Origin: Candidatus Poribacteria bacterium
GTDB lineage: Bacteria; Poribacteria; WGA-4E; WGA-3G
DNA length: 64,000 bases
Direction of reading: 5' to 3'
Assembly: GCA_009841255.1 (NCBI GenBank)
Contig: VXMD01000032.1
Span: 305,923 to 369,922, forward strand
The notes below the pieces were generated by a model. That model worked only from the letters and a program-made list of their open reading frames with translations, did not search any database and had not been told where the DNA came from. Positions 18,454 through 62,169 of the stretch are shown here, piece after piece; the first letter of the stretch is position 1, and each line of letters starts with the position of its first letter. The position numbers and the translations under genes are program-made.

Positions 18454-19884
18454 ATGAACGCCCAAAACCGAACAATCTTTGAAGGCGATAACCTGCATAT
18501 CCTACGCGGACTTGACTCCGAGTCTATAGACCTGATATATCTCGATCCTCCATTCAACTCTAATCGCAACTACTCCGCCCCCATCGGGAGTGAGGCAGCA
18601 GGTGCAGCTTTTAAGGATACGTGGACACTATCAGACGTAGACAACGCTTGGCACGGTGAGATCGCAGAGCGAGAGCCGGCACTCTATCAGGCAATACATA
18701 CAGCAGAACTGACACATAGCAAAAGGATGAAGTCCTATCTGATTATGATGGCGGTTCGTATGCTTGAAATGAAACGAGTGCTAAAACCTACAGGGAGTAT
18801 CTACCTGCATTGCGATCCGACAGCGAGTCATTACCTCAAAGTAATTATGGACAGTGTATTTGGCAGGGAGAATTTTCGGAATGATATATCATGGAAACGT
18901 ATTAATGTCCCTAAATCAACAAAGAATAAATTTGGGGCAGCCCATGATTGCTTGCTTTTTTATGTGAAGTCTAAAAAGTCTGTTTTTAATCAAGTTTATA
19001 TTGAATATGACCCTGATTATGTCAAATCTCGTTTCAACAGAAAAGATAAATACGGTTATTGGCAAGAATCGCCTTTACTCGCAGCAGGTACTACCAACGG
19101 TGATTCGGGTGAAGTATGGAAAAATATCGACCCAACAAGTAAAGGTAAACATTGGGTAGTGCCAAGGACATTACCGCCTTATATATCACTGCCAGAAAAT
19201 TGGGAAACATTTAAGGTAAGAGAAAAATTGGATTATTATGATAGCGTGGGCCTTATATACATACCACAAAAACACAACGCTATACCGAGGTTTAAACGCT
19301 ATTTAAGCGCAACAAAAGGTAAGTCTATTTCCGATATACAGGTAGACATCCCCTCAATACAAGGTGATTCAATCGAAAAAACAGGATACCCCACTCAAAA
19401 ACCTATTAGGTTGTTAGAGCGTATCATAAAAGCCTCGTCAAACGAGGGAGACTTTGTACTTGACCCCTTCTGCGGGTGTGCCACAACCTGTGTCGCAGCT
19501 GAACGCCTACAGCGTCAATGGATAGGGATTGATATTTCACCGAAAGCCATTCAACTTGTCAACATGCGTTTAGAAAAAGAACTCGGCTTTTTTGGCAAGG
19601 TTATTCAGCGCGCCGATATACCGAAACGGAGTGAGAAACTGCCAAACTACCGCACACACAAACATACACTTTACGGAAAACAGGAAGGCTACTGCAATGG
19701 ATGTAACGGACATTTTCCGTTTCGGAATATGACAATTGACCACATTGTGCCTCGCTCTAAAGGTGGTACAGATCACAAAGAAAATCTTCAACTGCTCTGC
19801 GGAGCGTGCAACTCAACTAAAGGAAATGGCACACAACCAGAACTAATTACAGTCCTGAAAGAGACGGGCATTTTACCGGACTAA
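18454..19884 (+). CDS. Beta-class DNA methyltransferase fused to an HNH nuclease domain
   Basis: The 476-residue protein starts with the catalytic motif IV ('LIYLDPPFNS', ~27-36). It then has a ~300-residue body with the target-recognition region, and near residue 335 the SAM-binding motif I ('VLDPFCGCATTCVAAERL') with 'WIGIDIS'. The IV-to-I order is the beta class of N6-adenine/N4-cytosine methyltransferases. The last ~65 residues form an HNH domain: two CxxC pairs ('CNGCNG', 'CGACNS') flank 'IDHIVPRSKGG'. The fusion suggests either a single-chain modification-restriction enzyme or a methylase with a DNA-binding HNH finger. Its middle section (18900-19420) is noticeably AT-rich. Confidence 0.88.
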   Translation: MNAQNRTIFEGDNLHILRGLDSESIDLIYLDPPFNSNRNYSAPIGSEAAGAAFKDTWTLSDVDNAWHGEIAEREPALYQAIHTAELTHSKRMKSYLIMMAVRMLEMKRVLKPTGSIYLHCDPTASHYLKVIMDSVFGRENFRNDISWKRINVPKSTKNKFGAAHDCLLFYVKSKKSVFNQVYIEYDPDYVKSRFNRKDKYGYWQESPLLAAGTTNGDSGEVWKNIDPTSKGKHWVVPRTLPPYISLPENWETFKVREKLDYYDSVGLIYIPQKHNAIPRFKRYLSATKGKSISDIQVDIPSIQGDSIEKTGYPTQKPIRLLERIIKASSNEGDFVLDPFCGCATTCVAAERLQRQWIGIDISPKAIQLVNMRLEKELGFFGKVIQRADIPKRSEKLPNYRTHKHTLYGKQEGYCNGCNGHFPFRNMTIDHIVPRSKGGTDHKENLQLLCGACNSTKGNGTQPELITVLKETGILPD

Positions 19885-36012: not shown

Positions 36013-36116
36013 TGAATTAATCGTCAATTGTTTAAATTATTACCTAAAAAACATTTCAGAGTCAGAAACTGTGGAACCCGTAATCCAAACAGAGATACGG
36101 ATAAGGGGTGATTTCC

Positions 36117-37628
36117 ATGAGATGCAAAACACATTTTCCGGTTTACGCGCTTCTCTTTATCGGATGTCTTTTCACGACGGGCGATCTGTCCGCTCAGGAC
36201 ACCGCACAGGTCTACGTGATTGACATTCGGAACGAGATCGGGAGCGGACTCGGTACCTACATCAGTGATAGCATCCAAACAGCAGAGGAAGCGGGTGCCG
36301 ATGCTATCGTTTTCGATGTGGATACGCCGGGAGGTCGGGTAGATTCCGCCGTAAACATCATCCGATCCATTCAGGATACACGTATTCCCACAATCGCTTT
36401 CGTCAATCGTCAGGCTATATCTGCCGGAGCGATGATCTCTATCGCTTGTAACCAGATCGTTATGACATCGGGTGGGACGATTGGGGATTCGGCACCTGTT
36501 AATATTCAAGGCGAGGAGGTCGGAGAAAAGGCTATCTCTTATATTCAGGGAACCATTCGGGCAACGGCAGAACGTGAGAATCGAAATCCCGATATCGCCG
36601 AAGCAATGGTAGACAAAGAACTCGTCCTCGTTAAACTTTCAGATGGTCAGATTATTAAACTGCTGCCCGAAGAATACGCCGCGCGTGAGGAAGAGGGCGA
36701 AGAGATGGAAATCCTCTGTGCCCAAGGGAAACTGCTCACCTTATCCACCCAACAAGCGTTAAAATACGGGTTCGCAGACGCACAAGCCGAAACGCTTCCG
36801 GAACTATTGACGCAATATGAGATTGTTGAGATTGATGGAACCAAACTACCCCTCACAGAAGCAGGCATCGCGCAACGAGAACAGGATCTTAGTGTTTCAG
36901 AAATCAATCGTCTCAAAACGTTAGCGGGAGCACGCATCACCGAGGTTGAGGCAACGCTTGCGGATAGAGTCGTTTTCTTTATCACAAATCCCCTCATCAG
37001 CTCGCTGCTCCTTTCATTGGGAATCCTCGGTATCTTCATAGAGATTCGCACCCCCGGCTTTGGTATCCCCGGATTCCTCGGTCTACTGTGTGTAGGGCTT
37101 TTCTTCGGCGGACACATGCTGACGAAAATCGGGGCAGAATGGGCATTCCTACTCTTCCTGCTCGGACTCGGACTCATCGCCTTGGAAGTCTTTGTAATCC
37201 CCGGCTTCGGTGTTGCTGGGATTCTCGGTATCACGCTGATGTTAGGGAGTATCTTCTTCGTTTTCGACAAGGCTTACGAGTTCCGTACAGCGGTGATGTG
37301 GCTCTCAATCTCTGTGATTCTGAGTGCCGGACTGGTGATTCTCGCCGCTTTTTATCTACCTGAGACGCAACTTTTCCGGCGGCTCGCTTTGTCAACAGTC
37401 ATGGATACCCAGAGTGGGTACCATTCGTCGAGTACCGAGGATTTTCAGGCGTATCTCGGAAAATCCGGAACCGCTCTGACACCCCTGCGTCCCTCCGGAA
37501 CAGCTCGAATCGCTAATAATAGGGTAGACGTCGTCACCGTCGGCGATTTTATCGCACAAGATAGCAACATCAAAGTCGTCAGCGTCGAAGGCCCTAAGGT
37601 TTTCGTAGAAGCCGTTGAAGAGGAATAA
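36117..37628 (+). CDS. NfeD-family membrane serine protease (long form, ClpP-class)
   Basis: The 503-residue protein has a signal/anchor, a ClpP-like protease domain and a C-terminal membrane and NfeD OB-fold part. Protease elements are 'FDVDTPGGRVDSA', the nucleophile in 'RQAISAGAMI' (Ser102) and a candidate Lys138 in 'GEKAISYIQ'. Four to five membrane helices follow ('PLISSLLLSLGILGIFIEI', 'FLLGLGLIALEVFVIPGFG'). The last ~80 residues are the NfeD domain ('YLGKSGTALTPLRPSGTARI'). Long NfeD proteins cleave stomatin/flotillin-type partners. ATG 36117 follows AAGGGG; the GTG at 36108 is less likely. Flotillin genes follow. Confidence 0.92.
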   Translation: MRCKTHFPVYALLFIGCLFTTGDLSAQDTAQVYVIDIRNEIGSGLGTYISDSIQTAEEAGADAIVFDVDTPGGRVDSAVNIIRSIQDTRIPTIAFVNRQAISAGAMISIACNQIVMTSGGTIGDSAPVNIQGEEVGEKAISYIQGTIRATAERENRNPDIAEAMVDKELVLVKLSDGQIIKLLPEEYAAREEEGEEMEILCAQGKLLTLSTQQALKYGFADAQAETLPELLTQYEIVEIDGTKLPLTEAGIAQREQDLSVSEINRLKTLAGARITEVEATLADRVVFFITNPLISSLLLSLGILGIFIEIRTPGFGIPGFLGLLCVGLFFGGHMLTKIGAEWAFLLFLLGLGLIALEVFVIPGFGVAGILGITLMLGSIFFVFDKAYEFRTAVMWLSISVILSAGLVILAAFYLPETQLFRRLALSTVMDTQSGYHSSSTEDFQAYLGKSGTALTPLRPSGTARIANNRVDVVTVGDFIAQDSNIKVVSVEGPKVFVEAVEEE

Positions 37629-38412: not shown

Positions 38413-39318
38413 ATGGTCGATCTATTTACAGGGGGAATTGCCCTCGTTGTCCTAATCTTTATTATCGCGTTCTTCTGGTTCGTTCCCGTTGGACTGTGGA
38501 TTGCCGCTGTCGCAGCGGGGGTTCCTCTCCGAATTTTTGACTTGGTCGGGATGCGCCTCAGACGCGTGAACCCTAATGTTATTGTGAAAGGATTAATCAG
38601 TGCCCACAAGGCTGGATTGAAGGTCGTAACCGCCGAATTAGAGGCGCATTACCTCGCCGGTGGCAATGTCCTCAATGTCGTGAGCGCGCTCATCGCCGCA
38701 GATAAAGCGAGAATTGAGTTGAATTTCCAACGCTCCGCCGCCATAGACTTGGCGGGACGGGATGTCTTTGAAGCGGTCCAGGTCAGCGTCAACCCTCGAG
38801 TGATTACAACACCGAGAATCAGCGCCCTCGCTTTAGATGGGGTTGAGTTGATAGCTACCGTCCGTATTACGGTGCGAACGAACATCAATCGGCTCGTCGG
38901 GGGTGCAGGTGAAGAGACAATCATCGCACGAGTCGGTGAGGGGATTATCAGCGCAATCGGTGCCTCTGAAACCTATGAAGATGTACTCGAAAATCCAGAC
39001 ATCATCTCGAAAACGGTACTCGATCGCGGACTCGACGCCGGCACTGCTTTTGAAATCCTTTCTATTGATATTGCTGATGTCAACGTTGGGAAAAATATCG
39101 GTGCGGAACTCCAAGCGGAGCAAGCCGAAGCGGACTTGGTCGTCGCACAAGCCAAGGCAGAAGAGCGTCGTGCGATGGCGGTCGCTCAGAAGCAGGAGAT
39201 GACAGCAGGCGTCCAAGAGATGCGTGCGAAAGTCGTTGAAGCAGAAGCGCAAGTCCCGCGTTCTCTGGCGAATGCGTTTCGTGAAGGTAATTTGAACACT
39301 GACACAGAACAACAGTAG
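38413..39318 (+). CDS. floA: Flotillin-like protein FloA (first paralogue)
   Basis: The 301-residue protein has an N-terminal membrane segment ('[20 protein letters not shown]'), the FloA/UPF0365 core ('[18 protein letters not shown]', '[20 protein letters not shown]', '[15 protein letters not shown]') and a C-terminal Ala/Glu-rich coiled coil ('[20 protein letters not shown]'). FloA organises membrane microdomains. TAGGAGA lies 6-7 bp before the ATG. A second floA-like gene follows. Confidence 0.95.
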
Positions 39319-39349
39319 AAGGGTTGTCAGTTCGCCTGCTACGCAGGTT

Positions 39350-39377
39350 GTAGGGGCAGGTCTTGTGCCTGCCCGCA
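39350..39377. repeat. GTAGGGGCAGG hairpin module
   Basis: GTAGGGGCAGG pairs with CCTGCCCGCA around TCTTGTG. The same hairpin type (with CGAG/CTCG arms) lies at 63640 and inside the amidase gene at 42973. It is followed by the short ACCGATAACTGATAACC repeat. Confidence 0.65.
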
Positions 39378-39440
39378 AATACTTTAACTGAGTACCGATA
39401 ACCGATAACTGATAACCATTAAAACGGAGGAATCGTAAAC

Positions 39441-40472
39441 ATGGCACCAACAATGGTCGCAATTATTGCTGTCCTGCTTATCCTATTTATCATTATTATT
39501 AGTTGGCTCGTCCCGATCGGTCTCTGGATTACTGCCATTGCGGCAGGCGTGAAGGTTGGGATTTTTGACCTCGTTGCGATGCGTTTGCGACGGGTCCCAC
39601 CCGCTGCAATTGTAGAACCCCAGATTAACGCAACAAAAGCCGGCTTAAATCTATCGCTTGACGATCTGGAAGCACATTTCCTTGCAGGCGGGCGCGTTGC
39701 AAGTGTCGTATCCGCACTGATCGCCGCAGATAAAGCCAACATCGATCTCGGTTTCGCGCAGGCCGCCGCAATCGATCTCGCAGGTCGTGATGTCTTGCAA
39801 GCCGTCCAGGTCAGCGTTACGCCTGAGATTATAGACATCCCCAGCAGAGAGGACGCTACCGCCGGTATCACTGCCGTTGCCCGCGATGGTATCCAGTTAA
39901 TCGTGAAAGCGCGTGTTACCGTGAGAGCCGACATTGACCGACTCGTCGGCGGTGCCACCGAGGACACCATCCGTGCAAGGGTCGGTGAGGGAATTATCAC
40001 AACGATCGGCTCCTCGGGAAGCCACAAGCAAGTCTTAGAAAACCCCGTGCGTATCTCAGAGACGGTGCTCGCAAAGGGCTTAGCCGCAGGAACCGCCTTT
40101 GAAATTCTGTCTATCGACATCGCCGATATAAATGTTGGTGAGAATGTCGGTGCCAAATTACAGACCGACCAAGCGCAAGCCGAACTCAAGATAGCACGTG
40201 CGAAAGCGGAAGAACGCCGCGCACGCGCAGAAGCGGAAGAGGAAGAGAATAAAGCGTTAGTCGAAGAAATGACCGTCAAACTGATTGAGGCTGAAGCGGA
40301 GGTGCCACTCGCAATCTCGGACACCTTTGATTCCCAGAGAATGAGTGTCATGACGTATTACGAACTCCGTAATATCCTTGCCGATACAGAGATGCGTCAA
40401 TCGATCGCCTCACCGGGTGGCACGCAAGAGTTAGACACGACGCGATCAGCACACTCACTCGGACTTTCATAG
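39441..40472 (+). CDS. Flotillin-like protein FloA (second paralogue, longer C-terminus)
   Basis: The 343-residue protein parallels its neighbour from the N-terminal helix ('[20 protein letters not shown]') through '[20 protein letters not shown]' to the coiled coil ('[20 protein letters not shown]'). It differs by a longer loop in the SPFH domain ('[19 protein letters not shown]') and an extra ~40-residue C-terminus ending '[10 protein letters not shown]'. CGGAGG lies ~9 bp before the ATG. Probably both paralogues co-assemble. Confidence 0.93.
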
Positions 40473-45423: not shown

Positions 45424-46848
45424 TTATCGAAAGGGTTTATCCAGTTGCGTCTGCATGAGTCTTTCTAAAATTTGCAGGCGCAACGCCGTTTCAACGTCCG
45501 CAACTTCGGGTCTACCCGCAAGGTTCTGTATTTCATTCGGGTCGTTCTGCACATTAAACAAAAGGTAAACTTCACCCTCCGCGTTGAGAGCCACCTTCCA
45601 TTCCTTGTTCAGTAACATAATCTCGCCCTCTATCTCCGAAATCGCGAAATCACGATGTGTCGCTTCAGGGTGCGTCAGCACTGGACACAACGATTTCCCG
45701 AACTGACGATGCTCCAATTCGCCGCCCGCCAATTCAACAAGCGTTGGACCAATGTCGAGCCATTCCACCGGACTCTCACAGATCCGTCCTGTGGGAGGGG
45801 TTTGTAACCCCGATGTTTCAGGGGTTCGCACGAGTAGCGGGATGCGAACGGCACCGTTCAGAAAATTGCTTTTATAGATAAGTCCATAGTCGCCGTTCAT
45901 TTCACCGTGGTCGGAGGTATGGACGATGATTGTGTTTTCAAGCTCACCGCGCGCCTCGATTGCGTCAAGAATCTCACCGATCTGATCATCAATGAGCGTC
46001 ACGTTGCCAGCATAATTCGCTCGAAGTCTTCCGACTTCGCCGGGTTCAAACGTCGGATTCATCCGCTGCATCAGGTTGTCCAAATGTCCTGTGGGACGCC
46101 TTTCCATAAACGGACGCGGGATCGCTGGCGGCATGTCTTCAGGATTGTACATGCTGGCATAAGGTTCAGGTGTATCCCACGGTTCATGCGGTCCACCAAA
46201 ACTCACCCAACAGCACCACGGTTCCTCCCGTTCATAGTGCTGGAGGTATTGCTTCGCCTGTTGCCCAACGTAGACGTCGGCATAATCTTCGAGTCCTAAC
46301 GTTGATGAACGGACGAGATGCGGTTTCGTGCTGAACCGCTCGCGATAATCGGCGCGGTAACCCTCCCATAAACCCTTTTCTTCCCACATCGCCGTCATGT
46401 GGGACAGCACATTCGCGCTTGCCCGCGGTCCACCGATTTCGTTCACATCGTCTAACCCGTAGGCGTTCATTAAGTCCTCACGTTCACGCAGATCGCCGTT
46501 GTGTGGATGGAGGTGTGTCTTACCAAACAGGCTCGTCCGATACCCAGCATCACGCACCGCTTGCATCCATGTCGGCGTTTCGGCAGGCATCTGGTGATTC
46601 ATATTGTTCCAGACATGCGTGTTATGGGGATACAAACCCGTCGCCAAGCTGAGTCGCGTCGGGATACAGACGGGTGATGTGGTGACGCAGTTCGTGAATC
46701 GGATCCCTTCACCGGCAATTCGATCCAAATGTGGGGTCTGGACCCGAGAAAAGCCACACGCGCTTTTCTTCTTCTCGCCACTGCAACTCATCGCGTCCCA
46801 ACGCTGTTGGTCTGTCATAAGAAGAAGGATGTTCGGAGTGGTTGCCAT
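45424..46848 (-). CDS. Type I sulfatase
   Basis: The 474-residue protein begins 'PNILLLMTDQQRWDAM' with the metal-binding Asp pair and has the formylglycine motif 'SPVCIPTRLSLATGLYPH', where C-x-P-x-R marks the Cys converted to formylglycine. A later 'HTSDHGEMNGDYGL' supplies further metal ligands. No signal peptide is visible, so it may act in the cytoplasm, or export may use another route. It would hydrolyse sulfate esters, probably of algal or sponge glycans. It follows a TIM-barrel isomerase by 2 bp in the same operon. Confidence 0.95.
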   Translation of the reverse strand: MATTPNILLLMTDQQRWDAMSCSGEKKKSACGFSRVQTPHLDRIAGEGIRFTNCVTTSPVCIPTRLSLATGLYPHNTHVWNNMNHQMPAETPTWMQAVRDAGYRTSLFGKTHLHPHNGDLREREDLMNAYGLDDVNEIGGPRASANVLSHMTAMWEEKGLWEGYRADYRERFSTKPHLVRSSTLGLEDYADVYVGQQAKQYLQHYEREEPWCCWVSFGGPHEPWDTPEPYASMYNPEDMPPAIPRPFMERRPTGHLDNLMQRMNPTFEPGEVGRLRANYAGNVTLIDDQIGEILDAIEARGELENTIIVHTSDHGEMNGDYGLIYKSNFLNGAVRIPLLVRTPETSGLQTPPTGRICESPVEWLDIGPTLVELAGGELEHRQFGKSLCPVLTHPEATHRDFAISEIEGEIMLLNKEWKVALNAEGEVYLLFNVQNDPNEIQNLAGRPEVADVETALRLQILERLMQTQLDKPFR

Positions 46849-53198: not shown

Positions 53199-53307
53199 CC
53201 TGCAACAGCGGCGCAGGCGGATATACGCACAAGCAATGTATTTATCAAACCGACCTAACCGAACCGCAAGGTATCATTAAAATTCCGCAAGGTATCATTA
53301 AAAAATG
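53199..53307 (+). promoter_or_regulatory. Hairpin plus double start-codon leader module
   Basis: CCTGCAACAGCGGCGCAGG (53199-53217) is followed by CCGAACCGCAAGGTATCATT and a second CCGCAAGGTATCATTAAAAA that ends at the ATG of the first GNAT gene. Confidence 0.6.
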
Positions 53308-53901
53308 GCACGACAACTCAGGATGGTGCGTCCCCACTTAGAAGACTTACCGGAACTACAACTCCCACCCGGCTACGGCATACGAACCTATCGTGAAGGC
53401 GATGAGGTCCATTGGGCACGCATCATCAGCGATTCGTTTGGCGGTAGGACACGCACCGCCCAAGATACAAGGAACGAGATTACCAGCAGAGATGTATTCA
53501 TTCCAGATGGACTCTATTTCGCAACGCATCAAGATATCCCCGTTGGAACCGCCTGTGCATGGCGGGAATCCGTAGATGAGAAGGATGTTGGATATGTGCA
53601 CATGGTAGGCGTTGTCGCTGAACACACCGGACATAAACTCGGAAAATGGGTCTCACTCGCCGTTCTCATCTACTTCCGAAACAACGGATTCAAATGCTCA
53701 ATGCTGGATACCGATGATTTTCGTGTCCCGGCTGTCAAGACCTATCTGAACTTAGGGTTTATACCTGTTTACGTCGAAGAGGGACAGATAGAACGATGGC
53801 AGAAACTTTTTGAGCAATTGGGATTGCCCGCTATGTCCGCACAAATCGAGAACGTCAGAGAAATGCTCCCTGAGGAACTATGGGTGAAAGTCTCACGTTA
53901 G
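53305..53901 (+). CDS. GNAT-family N-acetyltransferase (first of a tandem pair)
   Basis: The 198-residue protein has a GNAT fold: N-terminal 'GYGIRTYREGDEVHWARII', acetyl-CoA loop 'VVAEHTGHKLGKWVSLAVLI' and 'LDTDDFRVPAVKTYLNLGFI' with the terminal 'PVYVE' strand. It would acetylate an unknown small molecule or protein. Its start codon is part of a double leader module. The next gene, 6 bp away, is a paralogue sharing the same blocks. This copy carries ~25 extra C-terminal residues. Confidence 0.9.
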   Translation: MARQLRMVRPHLEDLPELQLPPGYGIRTYREGDEVHWARIISDSFGGRTRTAQDTRNEITSRDVFIPDGLYFATHQDIPVGTACAWRESVDEKDVGYVHMVGVVAEHTGHKLGKWVSLAVLIYFRNNGFKCSMLDTDDFRVPAVKTYLNLGFIPVYVEEGQIERWQKLFEQLGLPAMSAQIENVREMLPEELWVKVSR

Positions 53902-53907
53902 AATAGC

Positions 53908-54435
53908 ATGGAAGATCAGCTCAAAATGACTCGGCACAATTTGGAAAATCTACCGACGCTCCAGTGTCCTGACGGATATCATATCCGCACCTATCAACAA
54001 GGAGACGAGCCCCATTGGGCGCGAATCATGGACAGAGTCTTCGTAGACCAAGGAAGAACTGCCCAAGATACCTACGCCGCCGTTATTAACCAACCCAATT
54101 TTGATCCAGACGGTTTCTGTTTTGTGATTCACAACGGTATTCCCATCGGTACAGCGTGTGCTTGGAACGAATATCTGCATGGAAAACCCATCGGCTACAT
54201 TGATATGCTCGCCGTGTTGCCGGAGCACACCGGACATAAACTCGGAAAATGGCTAACGGTGTTCCTCCTGCACTATTTTAAAGCGCAACGCGTGGTATCC
54301 GTAATGTTAGACACAGACGATTTTCGACTGCCCGCAATCAAAAATTATCTCAACTTAGGGTTTGTTCCTGTTTATGCAGGTGAAAACCATCTCCGACGCT
54401 GGCGATGTATCTTTGAAAAGTTGGGAATCTTCTAA
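53908..54435 (+). CDS. GNAT-family N-acetyltransferase (second of a tandem pair)
   Basis: The 175-residue paralogue of the preceding protein matches block by block: 'GYHIRTYQQGDEPHWARIMD', 'AVLPEHTGHKLGKWLTVFLL', 'MLDTDDFRLPAIKNYLNLGF' and 'VPVYAGE'. It is a tandem duplication that has diverged in the middle and C-terminus, so the two probably have different acceptors. The glycosyltransferase gene follows after 2 bp, so the three genes form one unit. Confidence 0.9.
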   Translation: MEDQLKMTRHNLENLPTLQCPDGYHIRTYQQGDEPHWARIMDRVFVDQGRTAQDTYAAVINQPNFDPDGFCFVIHNGIPIGTACAWNEYLHGKPIGYIDMLAVLPEHTGHKLGKWLTVFLLHYFKAQRVVSVMLDTDDFRLPAIKNYLNLGFVPVYAGENHLRRWRCIFEKLGIF

Positions 54436-58365: not shown

Positions 58366-61300
58366 ATGTTGCCCATATCTCGAGCGATTTTCTCTTATTC
58401 ATATCTATTTTCTCTTTTCATGCTCGCGCTGAACCTACCTGTCCAGCATATACATGCAGCCGATCATGAAGGTGAAGGCAGTACATCCCCATCAACTGTT
58501 AACAACTCGACTCGCGAAGCCCAGACATTGATAGTCGGAACACCCACAACAAAAACTTTCAGTTTTACAGACGTTTATCAGATAGAACTCAGCCTGAATA
58601 TACCGGGGAATATCGAACTGATTGCCACAGAAGGCGATGTCATCACCGTTACGCTTGAGAAGTACGCACGAGAAACCACAAATACAAAACTGATTCGCGA
58701 CTATCTTGATAACATCACCTTCACAGGAACACAAAGCAATGAGACCCTTCAGTTGAGAATACAACGACCGGGTGATCCTCCTGAAGCACAGTCGAACCCT
58801 CTTCCCAAGACGGAAGCGTTACAAGCAGTGCCCTACGATGGCCTCCACCTGAAATGTACAATTAAAACCCCTGCGGATGTCGCCGTTAAACTCCACGCAA
58901 AAACCGGAGATATACACCTTCAACGTATCCGTGGGAAAATAGAAGCCTCAACAGGGACAGGCAATGTCCATTTAGAGGAAACCGTAGGTACCTATAATAT
59001 CAGGGTGACCAAGGGCAATATTGATGGAAAAATTTTGCTGACCCACGGACAAAACAAATTAGAGACGCAAAATGGCTCAATTGGATTGGTGATACTCGAC
59101 ACCGTTGCATCACCGATGGATATTACCGCACAAGGGGGTAGTATTCGTTTACGACTTCCTGAAAATTACACCGCGGATGTTGAAGTGGAGAGCGAAAAAC
59201 GGCGGATTGTTGTCAATTTGCCCGCACACCTTGACGAAGAAACCGGACTGACCCTTATTAACGAGGGTGGACCGCTGTTTCGATTGAAAGCCACCGATAC
59301 GATCTCACTACTACCGAGTAGCGCAGATACACCCACAGATACCGAAACGGATCTGATCGTAGATTTTGCACAACCCATCCCGCACGTCGCAAAAGCTCCG
59401 ATAATTGATGGAAATTTATCTGAAATCGCTTGGCAAGCCGCTGCCCTGCTTTCTCCGTTTCAGAACCCAGATGGCACCGATGTTCCAAGCAATTCAACTG
59501 AAACTTTTTTAATGTGGGATGCCGAGAATTTCTATGTCGGTGTAAAAGCATATATGTCTGACGCCTTTCTTCCCTATATTTCACAGACACAGCAAGATTC
59601 GCCCATCTGGGGAGACGAGTGTATTGAAATCCTGATTGATCCTAACCCCAAAACTGATATCTACTATCATCTTGTTATTAATCCAATCGGTGCATCCTTT
59701 GATCAGCGTGTGAATACACCCGGAGAACCGAGTTTCCAGTTTGCCCCTCATGATGTTCAAGTTACTTTGAATCGGAAAACGATGAAAACCGTGTTTGACG
59801 CCGATAGCACATGGAACTCAAATGCAAAAGTTGGCAGCCAAATTAACGCCGCCTTCTGGAGTCTTGAAGTCGCTCTCCCGCGTAAAATGTTAGAGTCCTC
59901 CACAAAAACAGATGCACAGTCAACACCCGCTTTTGAAAACAAGTGGCTTTTTAACATCCATCGTAAGATGCATAGTAGCAATATGAAGAGTCTCATTCCT
60001 GCTACGTCCAGAGAATATAGTTATTGGCTGCCGATTTACGATACAGTGTATCCGTGGTGGCCCCACTCGCCACAGGAGTACACCGGACCGCTCTCGGGAC
60101 GCTATGGTCCAGCGATGGGTATTTTGCAGTTCGTAACGACACCGAGCACTTCTGAAGACTTCGTATCCGAAGAGAAATTCAGGGTTGAGGCCATTGAAAT
60201 CAAAGGGAACACCACAATTCCGACAGAGGTCATTCAACGACATCTTCCGATCCAGCCTGAAGATGTCATTACAGGTCCACAACTTTCTTGGCTCATCACG
60301 GAATTACGGGAACACGGTTGGTTTCAAGATGTGCGTTTGGAAACGAAGCAGGTCGACGGTGGTAGTGAAGAATCAATCGGCACTCAGAAACCGGAAGGTC
60401 TTGTTTCACCAGACACCGCTTTACCGACAACCGACAACCGAAAGGATTTTCGTAGACAGGGAAGCCCACACGGACTTCATACCGTTGATTCATCCGAAAC
60501 GAGAACCATTCCAAGTATCAGTTTGCATATCCGAGTTACGGAAGCGCGTGTACTTTTTGCCCAGCAAATTAAGATCGCAGGGAACAAGAGTTTCCCCTCA
60601 CAATTTATCAAGGAGTGGTTTCAGTTAGAATCCGGTTATCTTGCCCCTACTGTCCTTAGACTGAAGCAACAATTAATTGCTGACTTCTATTCAAATCGTG
60701 GGTATGAATTCGCCACGGTTACACATCAATCTGTCAATGATGTCCTTGAATTCAGCATTGACGAGGGCACATTGCACGAAATTCGTTTCACTGGAAACAG
60801 TCGGATCTCGCGGGCAGAACTATTGTCAGCACTTGACTTAAAGACTGCAGCAGGTGATGGAGAACAGGATTCGCAAGTTTCCGATATTTACTATCATGCC
60901 CTCGGTCAGTCAAAGATAAACCGTATGCGTAAGGAACTCAGTGAAAACAGTGAGCATTTCAAATCGATTCGGAATTGGCATGTCCAACGTGAGGGTGGAA
61001 AAAACGTCATGATTGTCGATATTGAAGAGCAGCCGTTCGCCAGACCCGGTGGTTTCCCGATTCTTCAATTCAATCGTGTTCACGGGTTAATGCTCGGCGC
61101 GGGTGGGACCCTCTCGACGCACCTCACGGGCAAAGAGGAGGTTTTCGGTTCTATCAGCCGTGGATTTTCGAGCAAGACATGGAATTATCACGCCGGTATC
61201 GAAAAGAGTTTCTTTAAACGGAAACTTCTCAGATTCGGAGGGAGTTTCTATAAACTCACCGATGTCAGTTCTAATCTCTATCTACATCAAGGTGATGCTA

Positions 61301-62169
61301 CCCTGAGTGCCACCTATGATGGTTCAGCACTTCAGGATTATTATCAACGTCAAGGCTCACAAGGGTGGATAACTTACGCCCCCTCCGAATGGTCGTATTT
61401 TAGACTGGAGTTCACTGGAGAAAGGCACGACAATCTTTCCAAATCAACGGATTGGAGTTACTTAAACCGAAATCTGATCAAGCGGGGAAATTCACGGATT
61501 AAGCGTGGACAATTGAGAAGCCTTTCTCTCGTTTATGCATTTGATACACGGGATCATAGGGCTACTACCATACGACATTTCCACACGCTGTTTTCTGCAA
61601 ATGAGCGAACTCGGCGGGGTTGGCGGGGTCAATTCGCAGTCGAGATAGCAGGACACGGTTTCGGCGGAGATTACGACTTCAATTTCTATCGGTTTGAGGT
61701 GGCACGCTACACCCCTTTATCGGGTCCACACCACCTGAACGTTCGGATCGCGGGTGATTTCGCCGCTGCCGCCTTGCCACGGCAACGGCTCCTTCACCTT
61801 GGGGGTGGTAATACCCTGCGCGGTCACGACTCTAACCTATTCGCTGGGGATAATCGGCTTCTCCTTAACCTTGAGTATCGGCTCATCCAAGAGACAATCC
61901 CCAGCGGACAAGATGCCGTGTTCGGGTGGACACTTAGCTGTTTCTTGGATACAGGCAGTGTGTGGTGGCATGATGATGCCCCTTTTTCCGATCTTGAAAA
62001 TTTTATGACGCGGCTCAAAACATCCATCGGTGTCGGATGCTCCGTTTTCATAGACCCATTCGGGAATCCCCCACCGTGGAGTCTTGCGCTTGAAGTGGCA
62101 GAACCACTGGATGCATCTTTTTCCTTGCGAAATCCGAGCATCATTTTGCGCTTGGATCGGATGTTCTAA
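58366..62169 (+). CDS. DUF4097-CBM9-POTRA-Omp85 fusion outer-membrane protein
   Basis: The 1267-residue protein has a signal peptide (1-31, 'YLFSLFMLALNLPVQHIHA'). Residues ~65-318 are DUF4097-like strands ('IELIATEGDVITVTLEKYAR', 'KTGDIHLQRIRGKIEASTGT'). Residues ~333-520 are a CBM9-like domain ('APIIDGNLSEIAWQAAALL', 'FLMWDAENFYVGVKAY', 'WGDECIEILIDPNPKTDIYY'). About three POTRA domains run from ~600 to 890 ('FRVEAIEIKGNTTIPTEVI', 'QQIKIAGNKSFPSQFIKEWF', 'IRFTGNSRISRAELLSAL'). A surface-antigen D15 barrel (~900-1267) ends with 'LRGHDSNLFAGDNRLLLNLE' and a C-terminal 'ILRLDRMF'. Omp85 proteins insert barrels or move lipids or proteins across the outer membrane; BamA is ~800 residues. A GGAACC-type site and a promoter precede ATG 58366. 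Confidence 0.9.
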   Translation: MLPISRAIFSYSYLFSLFMLALNLPVQHIHAADHEGEGSTSPSTVNNSTREAQTLIVGTPTTKTFSFTDVYQIELSLNIPGNIELIATEGDVITVTLEKYARETTNTKLIRDYLDNITFTGTQSNETLQLRIQRPGDPPEAQSNPLPKTEALQAVPYDGLHLKCTIKTPADVAVKLHAKTGDIHLQRIRGKIEASTGTGNVHLEETVGTYNIRVTKGNIDGKILLTHGQNKLETQNGSIGLVILDTVASPMDITAQGGSIRLRLPENYTADVEVESEKRRIVVNLPAHLDEETGLTLINEGGPLFRLKATDTISLLPSSADTPTDTETDLIVDFAQPIPHVAKAPIIDGNLSEIAWQAAALLSPFQNPDGTDVPSNSTETFLMWDAENFYVGVKAYMSDAFLPYISQTQQDSPIWGDECIEILIDPNPKTDIYYHLVINPIGASFDQRVNTPGEPSFQFAPHDVQVTLNRKTMKTVFDADSTWNSNAKVGSQINAAFWSLEVALPRKMLESSTKTDAQSTPAFENKWLFNIHRKMHSSNMKSLIPATSREYSYWLPIYDTVYPWWPHSPQEYTGPLSGRYGPAMGILQFVTTPSTSEDFVSEEKFRVEAIEIKGNTTIPTEVIQRHLPIQPEDVITGPQLSWLITELREHGWFQDVRLETKQVDGGSEESIGTQKPEGLVSPDTALPTTDNRKDFRRQGSPHGLHTVDSSETRTIPSISLHIRVTEARVLFAQQIKIAGNKSFPSQFIKEWFQLESGYLAPTVLRLKQQLIADFYSNRGYEFATVTHQSVNDVLEFSIDEGTLHEIRFTGNSRISRAELLSALDLKTAAGDGEQDSQVSDIYYHALGQSKINRMRKELSENSEHFKSIRNWHVQREGGKNVMIVDIEEQPFARPGGFPILQFNRVHGLMLGAGGTLSTHLTGKEEVFGSISRGFSSKTWNYHAGIEKSFFKRKLLRFGGSFYKLTDVSSNLYLHQGDATLSATYDGSALQDYYQRQGSQGWITYAPSEWSYFRLEFTGERHDNLSKSTDWSYLNRNLIKRGNSRIKRGQLRSLSLVYAFDTRDHRATTIRHFHTLFSANERTRRGWRGQFAVEIAGHGFGGDYDFNFYRFEVARYTPLSGPHHLNVRIAGDFAAAALPRQRLLHLGGGNTLRGHDSNLFAGDNRLLLNLEYRLIQETIPSGQDAVFGWTLSCFLDTGSVWWHDDAPFSDLENFMTRLKTSIGVGCSVFIDPFGNPPPWSLALEVAEPLDASFSLRNPSIILRLDRMF

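Follow-up and report, generated by a model that had tools for sequence, protein, structure and literature searches.

The window analysed here, a 64,000-nucleotide stretch of a Candidatus Poribacteria contig, encodes at 58366-62169 an exported protein in which a DUF4097/Toastrack beta-helix, a CBM9 domain, three POTRA domains and an Omp85 barrel form a single chain (Table 1). This is a real and conserved Omp85 layout, apparently undescribed, and it points to a barrel machine that a glycan of the cell envelope may anchor or regulate. The first-pass annotation had read the same chain from the letters, with about three POTRAs, and had placed it beyond the known Omp85 types; all of the folds are now matched by both Pfam and structure searches, and the architecture does fall outside the published Omp85 subfamilies.

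Table 1. Features of the window gene (window positions) and the short forms found in family f3 (positions within the named loci)
Feature	Coordinates	Strand	Basis
Whole gene, 1267 aa, intact ORF from ATG to stop	58366..62169	+	full-length relatives phylum-wide
Probable signal peptide, residues 1-32 (...LALNLPVQHIHA-A)	58366..58461	+	reading by eye
DUF4097/Toastrack beta-helix, residues ~56-297	58531..59256	+	PF13349; AF2; VIA Z 12.7-13.5 to 3pet, 3ljy, 4qrk
CBM9 domain, residues ~334-591	59365..60138	+	PF06452; profile match to 1i82; VIA Z 17.4-18.9; conservation
POTRA 1, residues 604-726, with long beta2-beta3 loop	60175..60543	+	Pfam, AF2
Variable low-confidence loop of POTRA 1, residues 665-713	60358..60504	+	pLDDT <50; variable in length or absent in relatives
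In-frame ~51-nt insertion with dispersed palindromic repeat copy (core 60462-60491)	60444..60494	+	comparison with L013 and L010; repeat count
POTRA 2, residues 730-799	60553..60762	+	Pfam, AF2
POTRA 3, residues 805-888	60778..61029	+	AF2, beta-alpha-alpha-beta-beta order
16-strand Omp85 barrel, residues ~912-1264, C-terminal end ...RLDRMF	61099..62157	+	PF01103; AF2 strand count; VIA Z 21-23
LRGH, Omp85 L6-loop motif of (V/I)RG(F/Y) type, residues 1151-1154	61816..61827	+	conservation among 41 relatives
Short forms of family f3	L059:5279-7342, L060:4969-6960, L061:4675-6624		DUF4097 + Omp85 barrel

When the window protein is searched as a single sequence, the Pfam scores of three of its domains barely reach the curated cut-offs: DUF4097 (PF13349) gives 25.0 bits (E 1.4e-5, cut-off 22.9), CBM9_1 (PF06452) 24.6 bits (E 2.6e-5, cut-off 23.4) and Omp85 (PF01103) 24.0 bits (E 3.4e-5), exactly the cut-off of 24.0. 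POTRA is matched in two stretches with E 3.3e-17. The doubt left by the near-cut-off scores disappears when relatives are pooled, since among the N-terminal halves of 41 relatives DUF4097 is matched in 39 and CBM9_1 in 36 at E 0.01. Run against the PDB, a profile of the N-terminal half picks out 1i82, which is the CBM9 of Thermotoga maritima xylanase 10A (E 2.5e-7), and one more CBM9 structure (E 1.2e-5). PF01103 scores far over its cut-off in the relatives L159, L160 and L057. The N-terminal hydrophobicity of the probable signal peptide is found again in most relatives.

AF2 models were built from the relatives' alignments for residues 68-1267 (pLDDT 77, pTM 0.49) and 45-606 (pLDDT 81, pTM 0.50); the individual folds are clear, while the placing of the domains relative to each other is unreliable because the pTM is low. 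In the models, CBM9 and DUF4097 folds lie upstream of the POTRAs, as the annotation had proposed. The Toastrack region resembles the solved structures 3pet (Z 13.5), 3ljy (Z 13.0) and 4qrk (Z 12.7) by VIA comparison, so that both the PF13349 profile and the right-handed beta-helix fold of Toastrack/DUF4097 are present. Residues 334-591 match the CBM9 structures 4jpq (Z 18.9), 7nwn (Z 18.2) and 1i82 (Z 17.4), and the solved structures that resemble the C-terminal half are Sam50 (Z 23.4), Deinococcus BamA (Z 22.7) and TamA (Z 22.0), with BamA also ranked top by Foldseek at E 3.5e-23. Three POTRAs and 16 barrel strands are seen in the longer model. The L6 motif, mostly (L/V)RG(Y/H/F), is well kept among the 41 relatives, with R in 37, G in 39 and Y, H or F as the next residue in 39. 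The protein thus carries PF01103, a 16-strand barrel, the L6 motif and at least one POTRA, and belongs to the Omp85 superfamily.

About 77 genomes, out of 85 that represent the phylum, have the long form, some copies being truncated by contig ends; this count was read from the coverage column of the phylum search, and the higher tallies of 59/60 and 83/85 genomes are not architecture counts because any Omp85 match was counted. Among the 56 good genomes (90% complete, at most 5% contaminated) one alone, G037, is clearly without the long form. The two genomes of other classes (L159, L160) both carry CBM9, POTRAs and barrel, and L160 has DUF4097 as well. In family f3 (G037, G040, G042) the protein is only ~650-690 aa: Toastrack is joined directly to the barrel, and both CBM9 and the POTRAs are missing. 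In the barrel tree two of these short forms (L059, L060) fall inside the long forms of their order and the third (L061) is unresolved, and the short form looks like a loss of the middle domains. Members of family f5 stand apart from the main clade on long branches, which makes their orthology unsure. Every domain is under purifying selection, with dN/dS of 0.08-0.23. Outside the phylum, an exact peptide-pattern scan of 84,980 species genomes, a weak test, returned Poribacteria only, and the combination of CBM9 with Omp85 was not found in literature searches.

The source genome has nine Omp85 matches. The canonical BamA is encoded at C51:18781-21042, with 406 bits on the NCBIfam BamA equivalog TIGR03303 (cut-off 297); the window protein, at 73.6 bits, is far under that cut-off and was rejected as the BamA of the cell. 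It was also rejected as TamA: the sole TamB gene (C31:108897-109634) adjoins a different POTRA-Omp85 gene, which is the better TamA-like candidate, and no tamB is among the neighbours of the window gene. Since a separate BamA and a TamB-adjacent Omp85 are both present, the window protein should do another job and is an extra Omp85 class. Among the other Omp85 members of the genome, the one at C48 is BamA-like and the one at C12 is of WD40 type, and there are two at C38, one of them with DUF4252. Fusions of DUF4252, a further unusual N-terminal domain for this barrel, to Omp85 barrels, with or without POTRA, were seen at L003:475-2913 and L062:5035-7095, and a chain of Peptidase_MA_2, WD40-like propeller repeats and Omp85 barrel is encoded by the source genome at L155:1289-4378.

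Ten Omp85 subfamilies were described by Heinz and Lithgow in 2014, with carbohydrate-binding domains and Poribacteria unmentioned (PMC4104836). BamA and the "BamA-like" proteins of that classification share POTRAs and a 16-strand barrel with the window protein, which, as the BamA-like proteins do, occurs in addition to a true BamA; however, BamA-like proteins have 1-3 POTRAs and nothing further N-terminal, where the window protein has Toastrack and CBM9. WD40-Omp85 and Metallo-Omp85 also bear non-POTRA N-terminal domains on the barrel, but the domains are not those of the window protein, and POTRAs are missing from their domain profiles (PMC4104836). PlpD, a patatin-Omp85 protein, likewise has a further folded domain ahead of POTRA and barrel (PMC11116518); that domain is a phospholipase and there is one POTRA, whereas the window protein has non-enzymatic folds and three POTRAs. 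No patatin domain was matched in the window protein by Pfam, its N-terminal folds being Toastrack and CBM9.

The gene travels alone. Its order is constant within family f1 (AP_endonuc_2 - gene - GcvT - TAtT - DctP), where the flanks comprise an AP_endonuc_2 TIM barrel, adenylate kinase, a PMT_2 glycosyltransferase, GcvT, TAtT and DctP. GcvT also lies downstream in f2, and neither the f1 order nor GcvT is kept in f4-f8; neighbours in other families include MFS, HslU-like AAA, helicase, Mg-chelatase and amidase genes. The neighbours are housekeeping genes that differ between families, and no conserved large exoprotein lies beside the gene in any of them. Export of sulfated-glycan-degrading enzymes, as had been suggested for the protein, loses its footing here: the sole sulfatase found in the window, of SGSH type (45424-46848), lies 11.5 kb away on the opposite strand, a sulfatase-export operon was rejected for want of a conserved neighbour, and solitary travel of the gene disfavours both sulfatase export and any dedicated cargo gene. 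Elsewhere in the window, two tandem flotillin-like FloA genes (38413-40472) follow an NfeD1b gene (36108-37628), two similar GNAT-type acetyltransferase genes lie side by side at 53305-54435, apparently by tandem duplication (the Pfam search covering the first), and a DNA methylase (N6_N4_Mtase) is fused to an HNH endonuclease domain at 18454-19884.

In the Thermotoga CBM9, the sugar is clamped between W71 and W175, and the residues that hydrogen-bond to it include E77, R161 and Q151. W415 and E421 of the window protein align on W71 and E77 in the N-terminal-half profile alignment, and a WW pair (564/565) lies near the position of W175, matched by spacing rather than by alignment. W415, W564 and W565 are each conserved in 37 of 41 relatives and E421 in 38; the CBM9 fold is genuine, as first proposed, with conserved aromatics on its ligand side. 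The Thermotoga domain shares fold, profile match and the clamp Trp and Glu positions, but is a module of a secreted xylanase rather than of a membrane protein, and the Gln151 position is a His in the window protein. In the divergent L058, L063 and L064 the sugar-site residues are lost and CBM9 is not matched by Pfam. The site residues, kept in one case and lost in the other, make sugar binding by CBM9 likely for the main clade and doubtful for outlying members of the family. Such binding is not proved by the fold, because CBM9-like folds also serve other ligands, haem among them (2ivf and 7b04, both among the VIA structure matches of the region). Nor would it be essential in every member, given the f3 form without CBM9 and the three divergent proteins without its signature. 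At least three other proteins of the source genome (L005, L006, L008) likewise carry CBM9 N-terminal to another large domain, DUF5916, an outer-membrane barrel; DUF5916 is not Omp85, however, and these proteins have no POTRAs.

Tentatively, the protein is read as an accessory Omp85 insertase or translocase, a paralogue of BamA that nearly the whole phylum has kept and whose periplasmic N-terminus would bind a glycan. The 16-strand barrel would lie in the outer membrane and, together with three periplasmic POTRAs, would insert or translocate certain outer-membrane or surface proteins in the manner of BamA-type proteins. The beta-helix and CBM9 would remain periplasmic; the N-terminus is placed there because this is the compartment in which the extra N-terminal domain of PlpD, also an Omp85 protein, was found (PMC11116518). 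CBM9 would bind a glycan, the likeliest candidates being peptidoglycan strands or an exported polysaccharide, and this binding may place or regulate the barrel relative to the wall, with the Toastrack sheets acting as a spacer or docking surface. Toastrack, for which 4qrk is the reference structure, has been proposed as a protein-docking surface and is predicted to be intracellular in its known contexts (PMC11237479); here it should be periplasmic since it lies behind a signal peptide. Peptidoglycan as the CBM9 ligand is a guess by analogy: mature peptidoglycan binds BAM, including the POTRAs of BamA, and lowers BAM activity (PMC9242858), and an N-acetylmuramoyl-L-alanine amidase encoded in the window indicates that a cell wall is present.

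It is somewhat unlikely, but worth weighing, that the protein is a BamA-like accessory insertase in which CBM9 and Toastrack bind proteins or act as structural spacers and no sugar is bound. The f3 short form, with neither POTRA nor CBM9, indicates that a barrel-Toastrack pair can stand alone, the CBM9 signature is lost in divergent members, and Toastrack has been proposed as a protein-interaction surface (PMC11237479). Yet 37-38 of the 41 relatives have retained the residues on the sugar side of CBM9, and purifying selection on this domain is as strong as on the barrel. CBM9 domains are mostly extracellular, and this, together with the glycan-rich sponge matrix that is home to many Poribacteria and the other CBM9 proteins with DUF5916 in the source genome, would fit a barrel that passes its own N-terminus outside, displaying CBM9 for extracellular glycan adhesion (type Vd, the first model of PlpD). 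Such surface display is improbable: when tested for PlpD, the domain was found to be periplasmic, the only location in which POTRAs have been seen (PMC11116518), and a folded CBM9 and beta-helix would need to pass through a closed BamA-like barrel.

A transporter resembling those of two-partner secretion, serving a dedicated secreted protein, is very improbable. A weak ShlB match to the barrel points that way, but its 16.5 bits are under the Pfam cut-off of 22.7, the gene adjoins housekeeping genes and no conserved large exoprotein, and three POTRAs stand against the two of FhaC; identity with FhaC or TpsB was rejected on the ShlB score and the lack of an exoprotein neighbour. An assembly join inside the gene, or a set of chance profile matches, might be suspected from the single-sequence scores of CBM9, DUF4097 and Omp85 close to their cut-offs, but its probability is negligible. 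It is refuted by the recurrence of the layout in many MAGs and in five genomes assembled into one or a few contigs (G005, G010, G018, G022, G028), by the structure matches and by purifying selection; no join was found, in agreement with the single chain first described.

A stronger form of the glycan-binding insertase reading, considered unlikely, is that insertase activity or position would be set by the protein's own covalently attached periplasmic sugar-binding domain, so that the insertion of outer-membrane proteins would be directly coupled to what state a glycan, for instance peptidoglycan, is in. Contact between peptidoglycan and BAM is known so far through POTRAs and lipoproteins (PMC9242858). 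If true, a dedicated sugar-binding domain in the chain of a BamA relative would offer a natural, testable coupling of glycan to barrel insertion, conserved phylum-wide in uncultured, mostly sponge-associated bacteria. The protein also adds an Omp85 class missing from current classifications.

An insertion of ~50 residues in POTRA 1 had also been singled out. Its presence and site stand, with pLDDT <50 at residues 665-713 between beta2 and beta3, but it is hardly a special feature: most relatives have a short loop or none, and part of it is a copy of a dispersed repeat. At ~60444-60494 the window gene carries an in-frame surplus of ~51 nucleotides that its close relatives L013 and L010 do not have, and this stretch contains AAGCCCACACGGACTTCATACCGTTGATTC. 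When up to 2 mismatches are allowed, the repeat core has 27 copies in the genome and the reversed control 0. Its consensus forms a hairpin, GAAGCCC-ACAC-GGGCTTC (z -2.5), which is lost in the decayed window copy. In the relative L086 the same loop matches many dispersed sites of its own genome, with sequences other than those of the window. The two cases indicate that small mobile repeats can enter the POTRA-1 loop repeatedly and in frame and be tolerated there; the insertion is probably not a functional module, which was rejected as first choice in favour of in-frame copies of dispersed repeats. Rickettsia palindromic elements are likewise inserted inside genes (PMC10969869).
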